From Natronorubrum thiooxidans (lineage in GTDB: Archaea > Halobacteriota > Halobacteria > Halobacteriales > Natrialbaceae), in contig NZ_FTNR01000002.1 of the NCBI RefSeq assembly GCF_900156475.1, positions 124,001 to 188,000 on the forward strand: 64,000 nt of DNA, in the 5' to 3' direction. Of this stretch, positions 44,777 to 51,488 are shown piece after piece. Position 1 is the stretch's first letter. Each line of letters begins with the position of its first letter. The notes below the pieces were generated by a model. That model did not search any database. It saw only the letters and a list, made by a program, of their open reading frames with translations, and was not told the origin of the DNA. A program made the translations under genes and the position numbers.

Positions 44777-46750
<1,974 letters not shown>

Positions 46751-46777
46751 GATACAACAGTTCAATATGCTACTACC

Positions 46778-46787
46778 ATAGTAAAGC
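46778..46787 (-). promoter_or_regulatory. TATA box of acs copy 1
   Basis: On the minus strand CTTTACTATG lies 28-37 bases before ATG 46750. The 310-base gap 46751-47060 also holds an A+T-rich AATAT/ATATT inverted pair near 46830 and the hairpin described below, and no gene. Confidence 0.45.
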
Positions 46788-46991
46788 CGGCATCTAGTTG
46801 TGCAAAATCGGGCCCCAAACAGGGAGGGAATATAGAGAATATTGACTGTATTAGGAGCGGATATCTGGTTATACGCGGCCAAATCCCCGTCAGATCGGAC
46901 ACGCGACACCATCGTTGATACCGGGCGTGGGCAGCCACGGCCGGAATGGACGGCGACGAACCACTGCCCTCTAGAGGCTTAGTATACGGTT

Positions 46992-47060: not shown

Positions 47061-49295
47061 TTAGTCGCTTCTGGACGACTCGACGTCGTCGCCGGCCGGA
47101 TCGTCGAAGAACGTCCGCAGGAGTTCGTGTTGGCCCTTCCGGAGGTGATTGTGCAGCGTCGGCGAGGAGACGCCCATCGCATCGGCGATCTCTTCGGCGG
47201 TGCTCTCGCGAGGCCAGTCGTAGTAGCCGCCGAAGTACGCGGCCCGCAGCGACGCCTCCTGTCGGTCGGTCAGTCGGTCCTCGAGTCCCTCCCGGAACTC
47301 GCGGGCGGTCTGGACGGTTCGTTCGGCTTCGCGTTTCCCGACCAGTTCCGAGTTGGGGAATCCGGAACGAAGGCCGACGAGGACCGTCCGCAGGTCGGCA
47401 TCGGCTGCGGATTCGGCAGTGATCGTCGTCACACCGCCTTCGGTAACGGCATCGATGACGGTGACGCCGTACTCGGTGAGTGTCAGCGTCGGCGAGGAGC
47501 CCTCGACGACGAACTCGACGCGCCAGCCGTCCTCGTCGGTTTCGACCAGCCGACAGTCGTCGATGCCGGGATCGTCCGCCGCGAGGTCGAAGACGTCGGC
47601 CGGCGAGCCATCCTGCAGTCGCACGTAGTACAGTTGCGTCGTCTCCGAGATCGGGACGAGCGAGTCGAGTTCGAACCGACAGCCGAGTCGCTGGGAGGCG
47701 TCGACGAAAAACGAATCGTCGTCGCGACAGGCGAACTCAAGTTCGACGACGCGATCGGACAACAGCAGGTTCCGTCGCCGGATCGCGGCGATCGCGTAGC
47801 CGACCTGTTTCCCGAGCGTCTCGAGCCACTGGCGTTCGTCCGCATCGAACGCCGCCACCCTGTCGGTTGCGACCGTCAGCGTTCCGTAGACCGTATCCCC
47901 GTAACATAACGGAACGCGCGCGAGCGCTCCCTCACCGTCGCTCCCTGCACCGTTTTCGCCTTCGGGCTCGATATCGAGGGGGACGTCGGTGGCGACCGAG
48001 AGTGTGCCTTCCCCGTCATCCGTCGCCGGGCCGTCTTCCTGCCAGTGGTCCGGAACGAGCCGATCGACGTCGGCGGGCTCGATCCCGCTCGAGGCGCGCC
48101 AGTCCGACCGCCGATCCGTCACGGTCGCCCGGTCGATCCAGGCGTATTCGTAGGCGCGTCCGTCAGTTAGTGCCGCACAGGTCCGCGTCTCGACTTCCTC
48201 GTGGTCGGTCGATTCGAGCAGCGATCGCGCGACCGCTCGGTGGGCCTGAGCGACCGCATAGCGTCCCTCGAGTTCGTCGCGGCGTGACCGGACCGCCTCG
48301 AACTCCTCGTGTGAAGCCGAGACATCACGAACGAAGACGGCAAAGCCGCGATGGCGACCACGGTCGTCCCGCAGCGGCGAGATGACTTCGGTCGCGCGAA
48401 ACTGTGAGCCGTCCTTGTGGACACGCCACCCCTCGTATTCGGAGCCGGACTCCTCTAAGGCGGTCGACAACGCTCGTTCCGGGCAGCCGTCGTCCACGGC
48501 CGCGTCCGTATAAAACGTCGAGACGTGCGTGCCGACGATTTCGCCGGCCCGATAACCGAACATCGACGCTGCGCTGCGATTCCACCGTTCGACGTAGCCG
48601 TCCGCATCGAGACGGAGCAGCGCGTATCGATCGCTTGCAGCCAGTAACAGTCGGATGACGCTGTCGTCGCTCACCATCGGTCCGGACTGAGTCTGCGAGC
48701 GGCCGTGATCGGATCCCGACGGCCGTTCGACGGCGTCGAAGGCGTCGACGATCTCCGCGTCCGTCGGTTCGGGGAGGTAGGACTCGAGTGCCTCGAAGCT
48801 CCCCCAGCCACCGACGGTTTTGACGACTCTGGGGTTGACCGCGTGATCGATGAGTGCGGTGTAGGTGAAGTACTGTCGCAGATCGCTCGTGGAGAGCTCG
48901 GCGAGTACCGGCTGGTCGTACCGCTCGCTGGCTCGCTCGGCGATGTCCGAAACCAGCATCTGCAGCCGTCGCGCCGTGACGGGAAAGATTCGATCGTTGG
49001 TGGAGAGCCCATTGCTCTGGGCGTATCGCCGCAGTTCTCGTTCGACGTGGGTCGGTAGATACGCCGTCCGTCTCGATCCGTCGTTGACGGCTGGGACCCG
49101 AATCAGGTACCGCGGCGGATCGATCCTGACCTGTTCGATGCTATCGACGGTGAGTTCGGTGAGCTCCGTCGGTCGGAGTCCGACATCACCACAGAGTCGA
49201 ACGACGAGTGCCTCGCGATACGTTTCGGCGGCGTCGAGGAGCGACTCGTAGTGCTCACGCGACAGCATCGACGAGTCGGTCCTCTCGAGACTCAT
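47061..49295 (-). CDS. Bat-type regulator: recombinase-like head, PAS, GAF, HTH_10
   Basis: 744 residues. Residues 1-180 resemble a tyrosine recombinase catalytic domain: Arg41 (GLRPTELTEL), Arg140 (SDLRQYFTY), Trp164 (GGWGSF) and Tyr173 (ESYL); the first His of the HxxR box is Ser137. A PAS domain follows (about 215-330, RNRSAASMFGYRAGEIVG), then a bacterioopsin-activator GAF-like domain (about 345-640). The C-terminal HTH_10 is LTDRQEASLRAAYFGGYYDW ... PTLHNHLRKGQHELL. HTH_10 proteins regulate transcription in haloarchaea. Its position between two acs genes suggests control of acetate metabolism (inference). A palindrome encloses its TATA box. Confidence 0.88.
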   Translation of the reverse strand: MSLERTDSSMLSREHYESLLDAAETYREALVVRLCGDVGLRPTELTELTVDSIEQVRIDPPRYLIRVPAVNDGSRRTAYLPTHVERELRRYAQSNGLSTNDRIFPVTARRLQMLVSDIAERASERYDQPVLAELSTSDLRQYFTYTALIDHAVNPRVVKTVGGWGSFEALESYLPEPTDAEIVDAFDAVERPSGSDHGRSQTQSGPMVSDDSVIRLLLAASDRYALLRLDADGYVERWNRSAASMFGYRAGEIVGTHVSTFYTDAAVDDGCPERALSTALEESGSEYEGWRVHKDGSQFRATEVISPLRDDRGRHRGFAVFVRDVSASHEEFEAVRSRRDELEGRYAVAQAHRAVARSLLESTDHEEVETRTCAALTDGRAYEYAWIDRATVTDRRSDWRASSGIEPADVDRLVPDHWQEDGPATDDGEGTLSVATDVPLDIEPEGENGAGSDGEGALARVPLCYGDTVYGTLTVATDRVAAFDADERQWLETLGKQVGYAIAAIRRRNLLLSDRVVELEFACRDDDSFFVDASQRLGCRFELDSLVPISETTQLYYVRLQDGSPADVFDLAADDPGIDDCRLVETDEDGWRVEFVVEGSSPTLTLTEYGVTVIDAVTEGGVTTITAESAADADLRTVLVGLRSGFPNSELVGKREAERTVQTAREFREGLEDRLTDRQEASLRAAYFGGYYDWPRESTAEEIADAMGVSSPTLHNHLRKGQHELLRTFFDDPAGDDVESSRSD

Positions 49296-49311: not shown

Positions 49312-49333
49312 CGACACGAATATAATTGTGTCG
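49312..49333 (-). promoter_or_regulatory. Palindromic operator around the Bat-type gene's TATA box
   Basis: CGACAC (49312-49317) and GTGTCG (49328-49333) form a perfect 6-10-6 palindrome whose spacer contains AATATAAT (49319-49326), 24-31 bases from ATG 49295. A second overlapping pair GTGT-CGGCAG-ACAC runs 49328-49341. Confidence 0.5.
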
Positions 49334-49432
49334 GCAGACACACTGTTTGCGATGTGAAATCGGTTTATGGGCAGCACTTGTTCTGTACTGTGTTTCGCCT
49401 CCCTTGAAAATGCGAAACGCTCTCCGTCACGG

Positions 49433-51409
49433 TCACTCCTCGTCGAGCTCGGCCTGGATTTCGCCGATGATCTCCGGGTTCCGCAGCGCGCTCGTGTCTC
49501 CGAGTTCCTCGCCGTTTGCGACGTCCTCGAGTAGTCGGCGCATGATCTTCCCCGAGCGCGTCTTGGGGAGTTCGGGCGTAAACTGGACTTTTGTCGGCCG
49601 GGCGATCGGGCCGATCGCCGTTTCGATGTTGTCGATAATCGCCTCGCGAACCGCTGTACCGTCGTCGTAGCCGCCTTCGGTGCTGACATAGGCGTAGACG
49701 TCCGTTCCGTTCGTCTCACTCGAGCGGCCGACGACGGCGGCTTCGGCGACGCCGGCGACACCGGTAATTGCGCTCTCGACTTCCGTCGTGCTCAGTCGTC
49801 GCCCAGAGACGTTGATGACGTCGTCGACACGGCCGAGAACGGTAATATAGCCGTCCTCGTCGATTCGAGCAGCGTCGCCGCTGAAGTAGTGCCAGTCGTC
49901 GCTCTCTGGATCGGAGAACTGATCCCAGTACTCCGCCCGAAAGCGCTCGTCGCCGTCGTACAGCGTCCGAACCATCCCCGGCCACGGGCGGGCGATGGTG
50001 AGATAGCCGGAGTCGCCGGGGTCGACCTCGGTGCCGGAGCTGTCGACCACGCGGACGTCCATTCCGGGCAGGCTCGGGCCGGCTGCGCCGGGTTTCATCT
50101 CGCTGACGCCCGGAAGCGTCGAAACCGTTACCGCACCCGTCTCGGTCTGCCACCAGGTATCGACGACCGGACACGTTTCGTTGCCGATGTGTTCGTAATA
50201 CCAGTTCCACGGGCGGGGGCTGATCGGTTCACCGACGGTGCCAAGCAGGCGCAGCGAGGAGAGGTCGTAACCGGCGGGATACTCCGATCCCCATTTCATG
50301 AACGCGCGGATGGCCGTCGGCGCGGTATAGAAGATATCGACCGCGTTCCGGTCGACGATCTCCCAGAGACGGTCTCGATCGGGGTAGTCGGGTGTCCCCT
50401 CGTACATCACCGTGGTCGTCCCGAGTGCGAGCGGCCCATACACGATGTAGGAGTGGCCTGTAATCCAGCCGATGTCGGCTGCACACCAGTAGGTGTCTTC
50501 CGGTTTGACGTCGAGGACGGCATGGCTCGTCCAGGTCGCGTGGGCGAGATAGCCCCCCGTCGTGTGGACGACGCCTTTTGGCTCCCCGGTGGTACCCGAC
50601 GTATACATCACGAACAGCATATCCTCGGCGTCCCTGGGGACGGGATCGACGAGTTCGCCCGCGAACGTCTCCCGCAGCTCGTGATAATCGCACTCGTCGT
50701 CGCCGAGAACGTGTGGGAGGTCGTCGCCGAGCCGATCGACGACGACGGTACTGACGTCTTGCTCGAGTTTGAGCCGGGCGTTGTCCGCCTTGCTCTTCTG
50801 GTTGAACGCATCCCCTCGACGGTAGTAGCCATCACAGGTGACCAGATACTCGCTGTCGGCGGCGTCCATCCGCGTGGCCAGCGCGTCAGCCGACAGTCCC
50901 GCGAAGACGACGTTGTGTGGCGCACCGATCCGGGCACACGACAGCATCGCGATCGGTAACTCCGGGATCATCGGCAGATAGATCGTCACGACGTCGTCTT
51001 CCTCGACGCCGAGCGCTCGCAGGGCCGCGGCGAACTCGTTGATCGCGACGTAGAGGTCCCGATAGGTGTACGTCTGTCGCTCCCCGTGTTTGCCCTCCCA
51101 CCGGATCGCCGTGTGGGTTTTGCGACCCGACTCGAGGTGACGATCAACGCAGTTTTTGGCGGCGTTCAGTTTCCCGTCGGGAAACCACTGGTAGAACGGC
51201 GCGTCCTCCTCACGGAGAACAGTCTCGTACGACTGGTCCCACGAGAGCAGATCCGCTGCTCGCTCCCAGCACTCGGGCCAGTTCTCCTCGAACTCGTCGT
51301 AGATCCCCGGATCCGTAACGTTTGCCTGCTCGACGAACGACGGCGGCGGGCGTCGGGGCGATCCAGTGAGGACAGGCCGGTCCCGTTCCCACTCGTTCCG
51401 ATCGACCAT
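49433..51409 (-). CDS. acs: Acetyl-CoA synthetase (AMP-forming), copy 2
   Basis: 658 residues, near-parallel to copy 1 throughout (FVEQANVTDPGIYDEFEENW, YTSGTTGEPKGVVHTTGGYL, DTWWQTETGAVTV, PKTRSGKIMRRLLEDV). Same reaction; expression conditions may differ. Differences from copy 1 include a longer variable N-terminus (MVDRNEWERDRPVLTGSPRR). TATA box 28-35 bases upstream. It lies upstream of the Bat-type gene on the same strand with a 137-base gap, and downstream of the antiporter. It may accept other short acyl groups, which cannot be decided from sequence. Confidence 0.94.
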   Translation of the reverse strand: MVDRNEWERDRPVLTGSPRRPPPSFVEQANVTDPGIYDEFEENWPECWERAADLLSWDQSYETVLREEDAPFYQWFPDGKLNAAKNCVDRHLESGRKTHTAIRWEGKHGERQTYTYRDLYVAINEFAAALRALGVEEDDVVTIYLPMIPELPIAMLSCARIGAPHNVVFAGLSADALATRMDAADSEYLVTCDGYYRRGDAFNQKSKADNARLKLEQDVSTVVVDRLGDDLPHVLGDDECDYHELRETFAGELVDPVPRDAEDMLFVMYTSGTTGEPKGVVHTTGGYLAHATWTSHAVLDVKPEDTYWCAADIGWITGHSYIVYGPLALGTTTVMYEGTPDYPDRDRLWEIVDRNAVDIFYTAPTAIRAFMKWGSEYPAGYDLSSLRLLGTVGEPISPRPWNWYYEHIGNETCPVVDTWWQTETGAVTVSTLPGVSEMKPGAAGPSLPGMDVRVVDSSGTEVDPGDSGYLTIARPWPGMVRTLYDGDERFRAEYWDQFSDPESDDWHYFSGDAARIDEDGYITVLGRVDDVINVSGRRLSTTEVESAITGVAGVAEAAVVGRSSETNGTDVYAYVSTEGGYDDGTAVREAIIDNIETAIGPIARPTKVQFTPELPKTRSGKIMRRLLEDVANGEELGDTSALRNPEIIGEIQAELDEE

Positions 51410-51436
51410 GTTCGTTCGAACCGAAGACAGTCAATG

Positions 51437-51444
51437 GAATAAAC
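51437..51444 (-). promoter_or_regulatory. TATA box of acs copy 2
   Basis: On the minus strand GTTTATTC lies 28-35 bases before ATG 51409, with leaderless spacing. Confidence 0.5.
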
Positions 51445-51488
51445 GTTCCTCCGAACGGTGTCCCGTTGAGCGATCGACCGACGCTCGC

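Follow-up and report, generated by a model that had tools for sequence, protein, structure and literature searches.

Conserved paired dyads as candidate operators at the promoter of an acs-linked haloarchaeal regulator with a tyrosine-recombinase-fold domain

Introduction

MrpR (YopR) is the master repressor of the Bacillus subtilis prophage SPbeta (PMC10516654). According to the accessible part of this source, MrpR combines a tyrosine-recombinase fold whose catalytic residues are lost with the function of a repressor that binds DNA, and so sets a precedent for non-catalytic repressors of this fold. The haloarchaeal regulator described here shares the fold and the loss of catalytic residues. 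However, MrpR is a phage repressor that combines a core-binding with a catalytic domain and is associated with repeated elements in the prophage genome (PMC10516654, accessible part), whereas our protein has the catalytic-domain fold only, to which PAS, GAF, BAT and HTH_10 domains are added, and is a chromosomal, acs-linked sensor. In archaea, the catalytic domain of the chromosome dimer resolvase XerA (4a8e, 5hxy) matches the N-terminal 190 residues of the regulator, which, in contrast to XerA, has no N-terminal core-binding domain, has its catalytic histidine replaced and is fused to sensor and effector domains.

Two further groups of archaeal proteins resemble the regulator in domain content. 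The family fam30-04, which sequence clustering placed among the recombinase families, combines Phage_integrase, BAT and HTH_10, in some members with GAF_2 (PMC8371274), and all four domains were found in the regulator; a target site, a gene neighbourhood and a regulatory role are, however, absent from the accessible text of its description. Bat of Halobacterium salinarum is likewise a gene regulator with GAF, PAS and a C-terminal HTH, but it is linked to bop, not to acs, and the accessible text describes no recombinase-like domain (PMC2253796). In the titles and abstract openings of the open-access literature searched, neither a regulatory role for these proteins nor the dyad pair reported below (D and its upstream copy, U) is described.

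The locus lies in a window of 64,000 nucleotides from Natronorubrum thiooxidans (NZ_FTNR01000002.1), the whole stretch of DNA analysed here, in which an earlier note had pointed to a palindrome over the TATA box of a Bat-type gene as an operator for its repression by itself or by another factor. The features discussed are collected in Table 1.

Table 1. Positions within the window of the regulator gene, its neighbours and the elements of its promoter
Feature	Position	Strand	Basis
acs1, acetyl-CoA synthetase, downstream neighbour; start reassigned to MSQEDGS	44777..46750	-	domain search
Box TTTTGYACANCTAGA in acs1 promoter, candidate HTH_10 target	46793..46807	-	21/21 acs1 promoters
Regulator gene: XerA-like domain, PAS, GAF, BAT, HTH_10 (744 aa)	47061..49295	-	domain search
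HTH_10 DNA-binding domain, residues 675-726	47118..47273	-	domain search
Codons 1-190, tyrosine-recombinase catalytic-domain fold	48726..49295	-	domain search, structure comparison, AlphaFold model
D, candidate operator, TTCG-N15-CGAA, between TATA box and start codon	49298..49320	-	137/163 unique promoters
CGACAC-N10-GTGTCG, palindrome of the earlier note (lineage-specific)	49312..49333		perfect in 3/67 promoters
Core promoter: BRE-like CGACAC + TATA box AATTATAT	49320..49333	-	conserved in aligned promoters
TGTGTC-N4-GACACA, overlapping palindrome	49327..49342		seen in window species
U, candidate operator, GTTTCGC-N13-GCGAAAC, just 3' of acs2 stop codon	49392..49418	-	U + D in 124/163
acs2, AMP-forming acetyl-CoA synthetase, upstream neighbour	49433..51409	-	domain search, gene order

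Results

The regulator and its gene neighbourhood

The BAT (PF15915, 165.8 bits, cut-off 25.8) and HTH_10 (PF04967, 63.1 bits, cut-off 23.1) matches place the protein among the Bat-like regulators, while its N-terminal domain matched Phage_integrase. In a profile comparison, residues 1-190 aligned with the catalytic domain of archaeal XerA (E 5.5e-8); the match was confined to chain residues 101-266 of 4a8e, and the combination of core-binding and catalytic domain of the MrpR type was not found. An AlphaFold model (pLDDT 88) indeed adopted the catalytic-domain fold of tyrosine recombinases, matching 4a8e with an E value of 1.7e-6 and a TM score of 0.68 by query length, and a fold search with the model also returned Cre, XerH and, weakly and at rank 47, YopR (8bj6).

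The catalytic residue set of tyrosine recombinases (R, HxxR, H/W and Y) is incomplete in this family. All 30 of 30 orthologues retain R, R, W and Y, and the HxxR histidine is changed to S, G, E or R; it is replaced in 96/96 Natrialbaceae-type proteins. Among 55 other long proteins, the position is mostly R (30) and is H in 6, one of the six being the short form L170, and the tyrosine is changed to F, L, S, H or A in 15 of the 52 aligned proteins outside Natrialbaceae. With catalytic residues lost, recombination is unlikely and DNA binding is the likely job of the domain.

The gene order usp, acs2, regulator, acs1 was observed in 20/20 Natrialbaceae genomes, in some of which an antiporter gene separates usp from acs2, and an acs gene on the same strand lies upstream of the regulator at 161 of 163 unique promoters. 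The longest acs1 ORF (44777-46912) exceeds the likely start by 54 codons, and the acs1 promoter lies within this excess. It contains TTTTGYACANCTAGA at -57 in 20 and at -58 in one of 21 Natrialbaceae genomes, with a single exact match in the genome; this box is a candidate activator site and may be a target of HTH_10. The strongly conserved core promoter of acs2 (51410-51460, minus strand) reads AACG(T/C)TTATTC in 21/21 cases, mostly with GGAGG before it and a CTGAC stretch after it.

A conserved pair of dyads at the regulator promoter

A search for orthologues matched 31 of 61 genomes, and the promoters of 30 orthologues were aligned. As a result, TTCG-N15-CGAA (D) was found in 28 of the 30, at -25 in the window gene and at -25 to -32 overall, and its upstream copy (U) in 29; the two occur together in 27, of which 24 have a U-D spacing of 96-99 bp. 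In the window, D begins 3 bp upstream of the ATG and extends into the left half of CGACAC-N10-GTGTCG, and U lies about 97 bp upstream of D, at the end of acs2. Picking sites by pattern fixes the arm bases by construction, and the evidence therefore resides in the frequency, place and spacer of the pattern. The base pair beside the dyad core showed no covariation in 67 promoters (32 complementary, against 31.3 expected). U and D share their arms and are mostly of one spacer class, both N15 or both N16, and their centres differ within the same promoter.

With a profile of the N-terminal domain, relatives were found in 134/195 and later in 271/392 genomes of the order, and the long members from further haloarchaeal families also carry both dyads, there mostly with spacer 16. 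In the D zone of 124 unique long-form promoters, 74 dyads with N15 and 29 with N16 were counted, the other spacers from 6 to 26 giving 0-2 each, and the U zone gave 74 with N15 and 33 with N16, other spacers giving 0-11; the short form L170 is counted within the 151 long loci used for these residue and spacer counts. Once the pattern was fixed, 40 further regions were obtained, of which 39 were used (L302, with no recognisable start codon, was dropped); these had not been examined before but belong to the same orthologous gene, so that some dependence on the first set remains. D was found in 34/39 of them, spacer 16 giving 34 and the remaining spacers from 8 to 24 giving 0-4. Both dyads were present within 230 bp in 23/39, and 200 shuffles of this set yielded zero promoters with both.

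Over all unique promoters from ten haloarchaeal families, D is present in 137/163 and both dyads in 124/163, with U sought to -450, and the pair is conserved across most of the families examined. By the strict pattern, D is weak in f7 (2/7), f6 (1/3), f9 (0/2) and f10 (0/1). These counts score L170, whose ORF runs off its stretch, as a miss. Four loci with no recognisable start codon (L139, L157, L162 and L184) were placed by profile position.

From these comparisons, we estimate a probability of roughly two in three that the U/D pair is functional and that the acs-linked regulator controls its own gene through it, most likely via the N-terminal tyrosine-recombinase-fold domain. The proposal of an operator over this promoter, with control of the gene by its own product, is thus well supported, but through TTCG-N15/16-CGAA and not through the palindrome for which it was made.

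Stand-alone relatives and the DNA-binding domain

It is conceivable, although we consider it unlikely, that the dyads are bound by the HTH_10 of the regulator instead of the recombinase-like domain, as HTH_10 classically binds DNA and is better conserved than any other part of the protein (mean identity to the window protein 94.7%, 29 orthologues). However, the TTCG dyad was found in 0/18 promoters of HTH_10-only paralogues in the same genome; the paralogue search gave 42 matches, 12 of them without a locus, and of the 30 loci taken 18 were readable to the start and the other 12 ran off, one of these 12 being the regulator gene itself.

Furthermore, paired dyads are often carried by stand-alone relatives of about 200 residues, which consist of the recombinase-like domain only and have no HTH_10 (L165-L184 and L323-L329). 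ACTT-N7-AAGT is present upstream of 12/27 of these short forms, and of 0/27 with the other spacers from 3 to 12; immediately ahead of the ATG, a related dyad, CTT-N7-AAG, occurs in 9/27, other spacers giving 0-4. The remaining 15/27 are without a strict upstream dyad, and the D-type dyad is weak. Outside seven named plasmid loci, of which L326 alone has the full ACTT-N7-AAGT, the two dyads are spaced by 85-86 or 105-106 bp where both were found. Genes for the recombinase-like domain alone thus tend to have dyads of their own, differing in sequence by subgroup, and this provides the main argument that it is the recombinase-like domain that reads the dyad.

R, H, R, W and Y are retained in 19 of the 19 stand-alone proteins checked. 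Plasmids of named haloarchaea also encode such relatives, with 75 matching plasmid records, and the genes are annotated there as site-specific integrases. Upstream of position 601 in L328, from a Halococcus dombrowskii plasmid, a third dyad type was seen, GGGGTT-N7-AACCCC together with, by eye, GGGGTT-N8-AACCCC.

Restriction of the pair to the regulator promoter

All long-form promoters represent one orthologous locus behind acs (161/163), and their conservation alone could therefore reflect another conserved factor. A profile of 46 dyad sites was searched in ten congeneric genomes, with 150 of 701-1158 candidates scored per genome and with most of these promoters represented among the training sites. 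Among the 25 matches, the 17 with E < 0.2 all lay in the regulator promoter, the next match having an E value of 0.6, and no second strong site was found among the candidates scored. The U/D pair thus looks private to the regulator promoter in these ten genomes. In the genome-wide search for TTCG/CGAA arms with at most one mismatch, N15 was not enriched (29, against 31 for N14 and 37 for N17), and a regulon sharing the site was found neither by this arm search nor by the profile within its 150 candidates per genome. Similar sites upstream of both acs genes and elsewhere in the genome, to which the earlier note had looked for confirmation, did not emerge with the conserved dyad either, which occurred in 1/21 upstream regions of acs1 and 0/21 of acs2, with no further strong site among the candidates scored in the ten genomes.

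We therefore regard it as quite unlikely that U and D are instead the sites of a different conserved haloarchaeal transcription factor, which would govern the regulator gene. The same pattern at a single orthologous locus would be expected from any conserved factor whose targets are few, but such a factor normally has more targets than the one promoter found in the ten genomes (at the scope given above) and the unenriched N15 arms would indicate; in addition, the stand-alone recombinase-like genes often own different dyads, in keeping with self-binding.

Position of U behind acs

U starts at a median of 4 nt from the acs stop codon where the U-D spacing is below 160 bp, and it stays 1-16 nt after the stop in ten cases with spacings of 178-405 bp. 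This tracking of the acs stop makes looping alone a less convincing model and suggests that U may in addition prevent read-through from acs; its placement fits a role at the acs 3' end as well as that of an operator. The U-D spacings cluster at 77-78, 85, 94-100, 104-111, 119-123 and 127-130 bp, and helical phasing gave a permutation p of about 0.009 for the 15 distinct spacings of at most 150 bp outside 94-100. We take this phasing of the shorter spacings as no more than suggestive, and it was rejected as proof of DNA looping given the best period of 11.25, the misfit of the long spacings and the dependence of U on the acs stop codon.

Taken further, the fixed position of U at both short and long spacings could mean that D alone is the operator, with U serving, as RNA or as DNA, to end acs2 transcription. 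This is still less probable in our judgement, since the arms and spacer class common to U and D would be unlikely for a terminator plus an operator, and since the upstream dyads of short forms follow unrelated genes, that of L326 sitting behind a TRAM-domain gene.

The palindrome over the TATA box

CGACAC-N10-GTGTCG, its spacer containing AATATAAT, is indeed placed over the TATA box of the Bat-type gene, and the overlapping GTGT-N6-ACAC, likewise described earlier, is present at 49328-49341 as part of the longer TGTGTC-N4-GACACA. The palindrome also forms the centre of a 40-bp imperfect dyad with arms 75% complementary. A perfect 6-bp repeat of this kind is, however, no more than chance yields: with spacers of 0-20, one was found in 20.6% of the sequences when the 80-bp promoter was shuffled 2000 times, and 323 of the 799 consecutive 80-mers along the window contain one as well. 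In the 4.2-Mb genome, the exact motif occurs at 2 places, the second with no recognisable comparable promoter context, and it was absent upstream of acs1 and acs2 when the sequence was read by eye.

Among 67 aligned Natrialbaceae promoters, the palindrome is intact in the window species, L004 and L006 (3/67), and most keep 1 to 4 of its 6 pairs. The conserved BRE (consensus CGAYAC, followed by AATTATRTTC) supplies its left arm and its right arm drifts, which argues that the palindrome is a chance combination of the BRE with adjacent bases that became fixed in a small number of sister species. Although it is real, placed on the TATA box and preserved in three sister species, this poor conservation led us to reject CGACAC-N10-GTGTCG as a functional operator, a role that is highly improbable. 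The 40-bp dyad and TGTGTC-N4-GACACA were also rejected as functional elements, as by eye they do not recur elsewhere in the promoter alignment. The most striking palindrome of a single genome may be the wrong element.

Least probable of all is that U and D are recombination sites at which the promoter segment of about 97 bp is inverted as an on/off switch, since, despite the retained R, R, W and Y and the Natrialbaceae centres TTTC and GAAA that orient U and D oppositely around the TATA box, the crossover centres are unmatched within a promoter, the catalytic histidine is replaced, the tyrosine too is lost in part of the proteins outside Natrialbaceae, and no inverted arrangement was seen among the promoters inspected.

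Discussion

In the mechanism that we propose for autoregulation through the U/D pair, a dimer of the regulator would sit on each dyad, with the N-terminal tyrosine-recombinase-fold domain, its catalytic residues largely lost, as the DNA-binding part. Occupancy of D would block TBP, TFB and RNA polymerase at the presumably leaderless promoter and shut the regulator's own gene, whereas occupancy of U may either help D cooperatively or stop read-through from acs2. Sensing by PAS and GAF would set the amount of regulator, and HTH_10 would act elsewhere, perhaps at acs1.

A broader reading, which we put forward tentatively, is that a XerA-like catalytic domain may have become an operator-binding domain in haloarchaea, used both by the widespread acs-linked regulator and by the plasmid stand-alone proteins, each of which would act on its own promoter via a private dyad pair of subgroup-specific sequence, with HTH_10 serving the acetate genes. 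If true, the acs-linked form would unite two DNA specificities, the recombinase fold for its own gene and HTH_10 for acetate genes, and the family would represent another, seemingly independent, conversion of a tyrosine recombinase into a transcription regulator. The analysis provides a defined candidate operator pair and a likely function for a large archaeal family so far listed as recombinases, and a candidate regulator of haloarchaeal acetate activation becomes directly testable.
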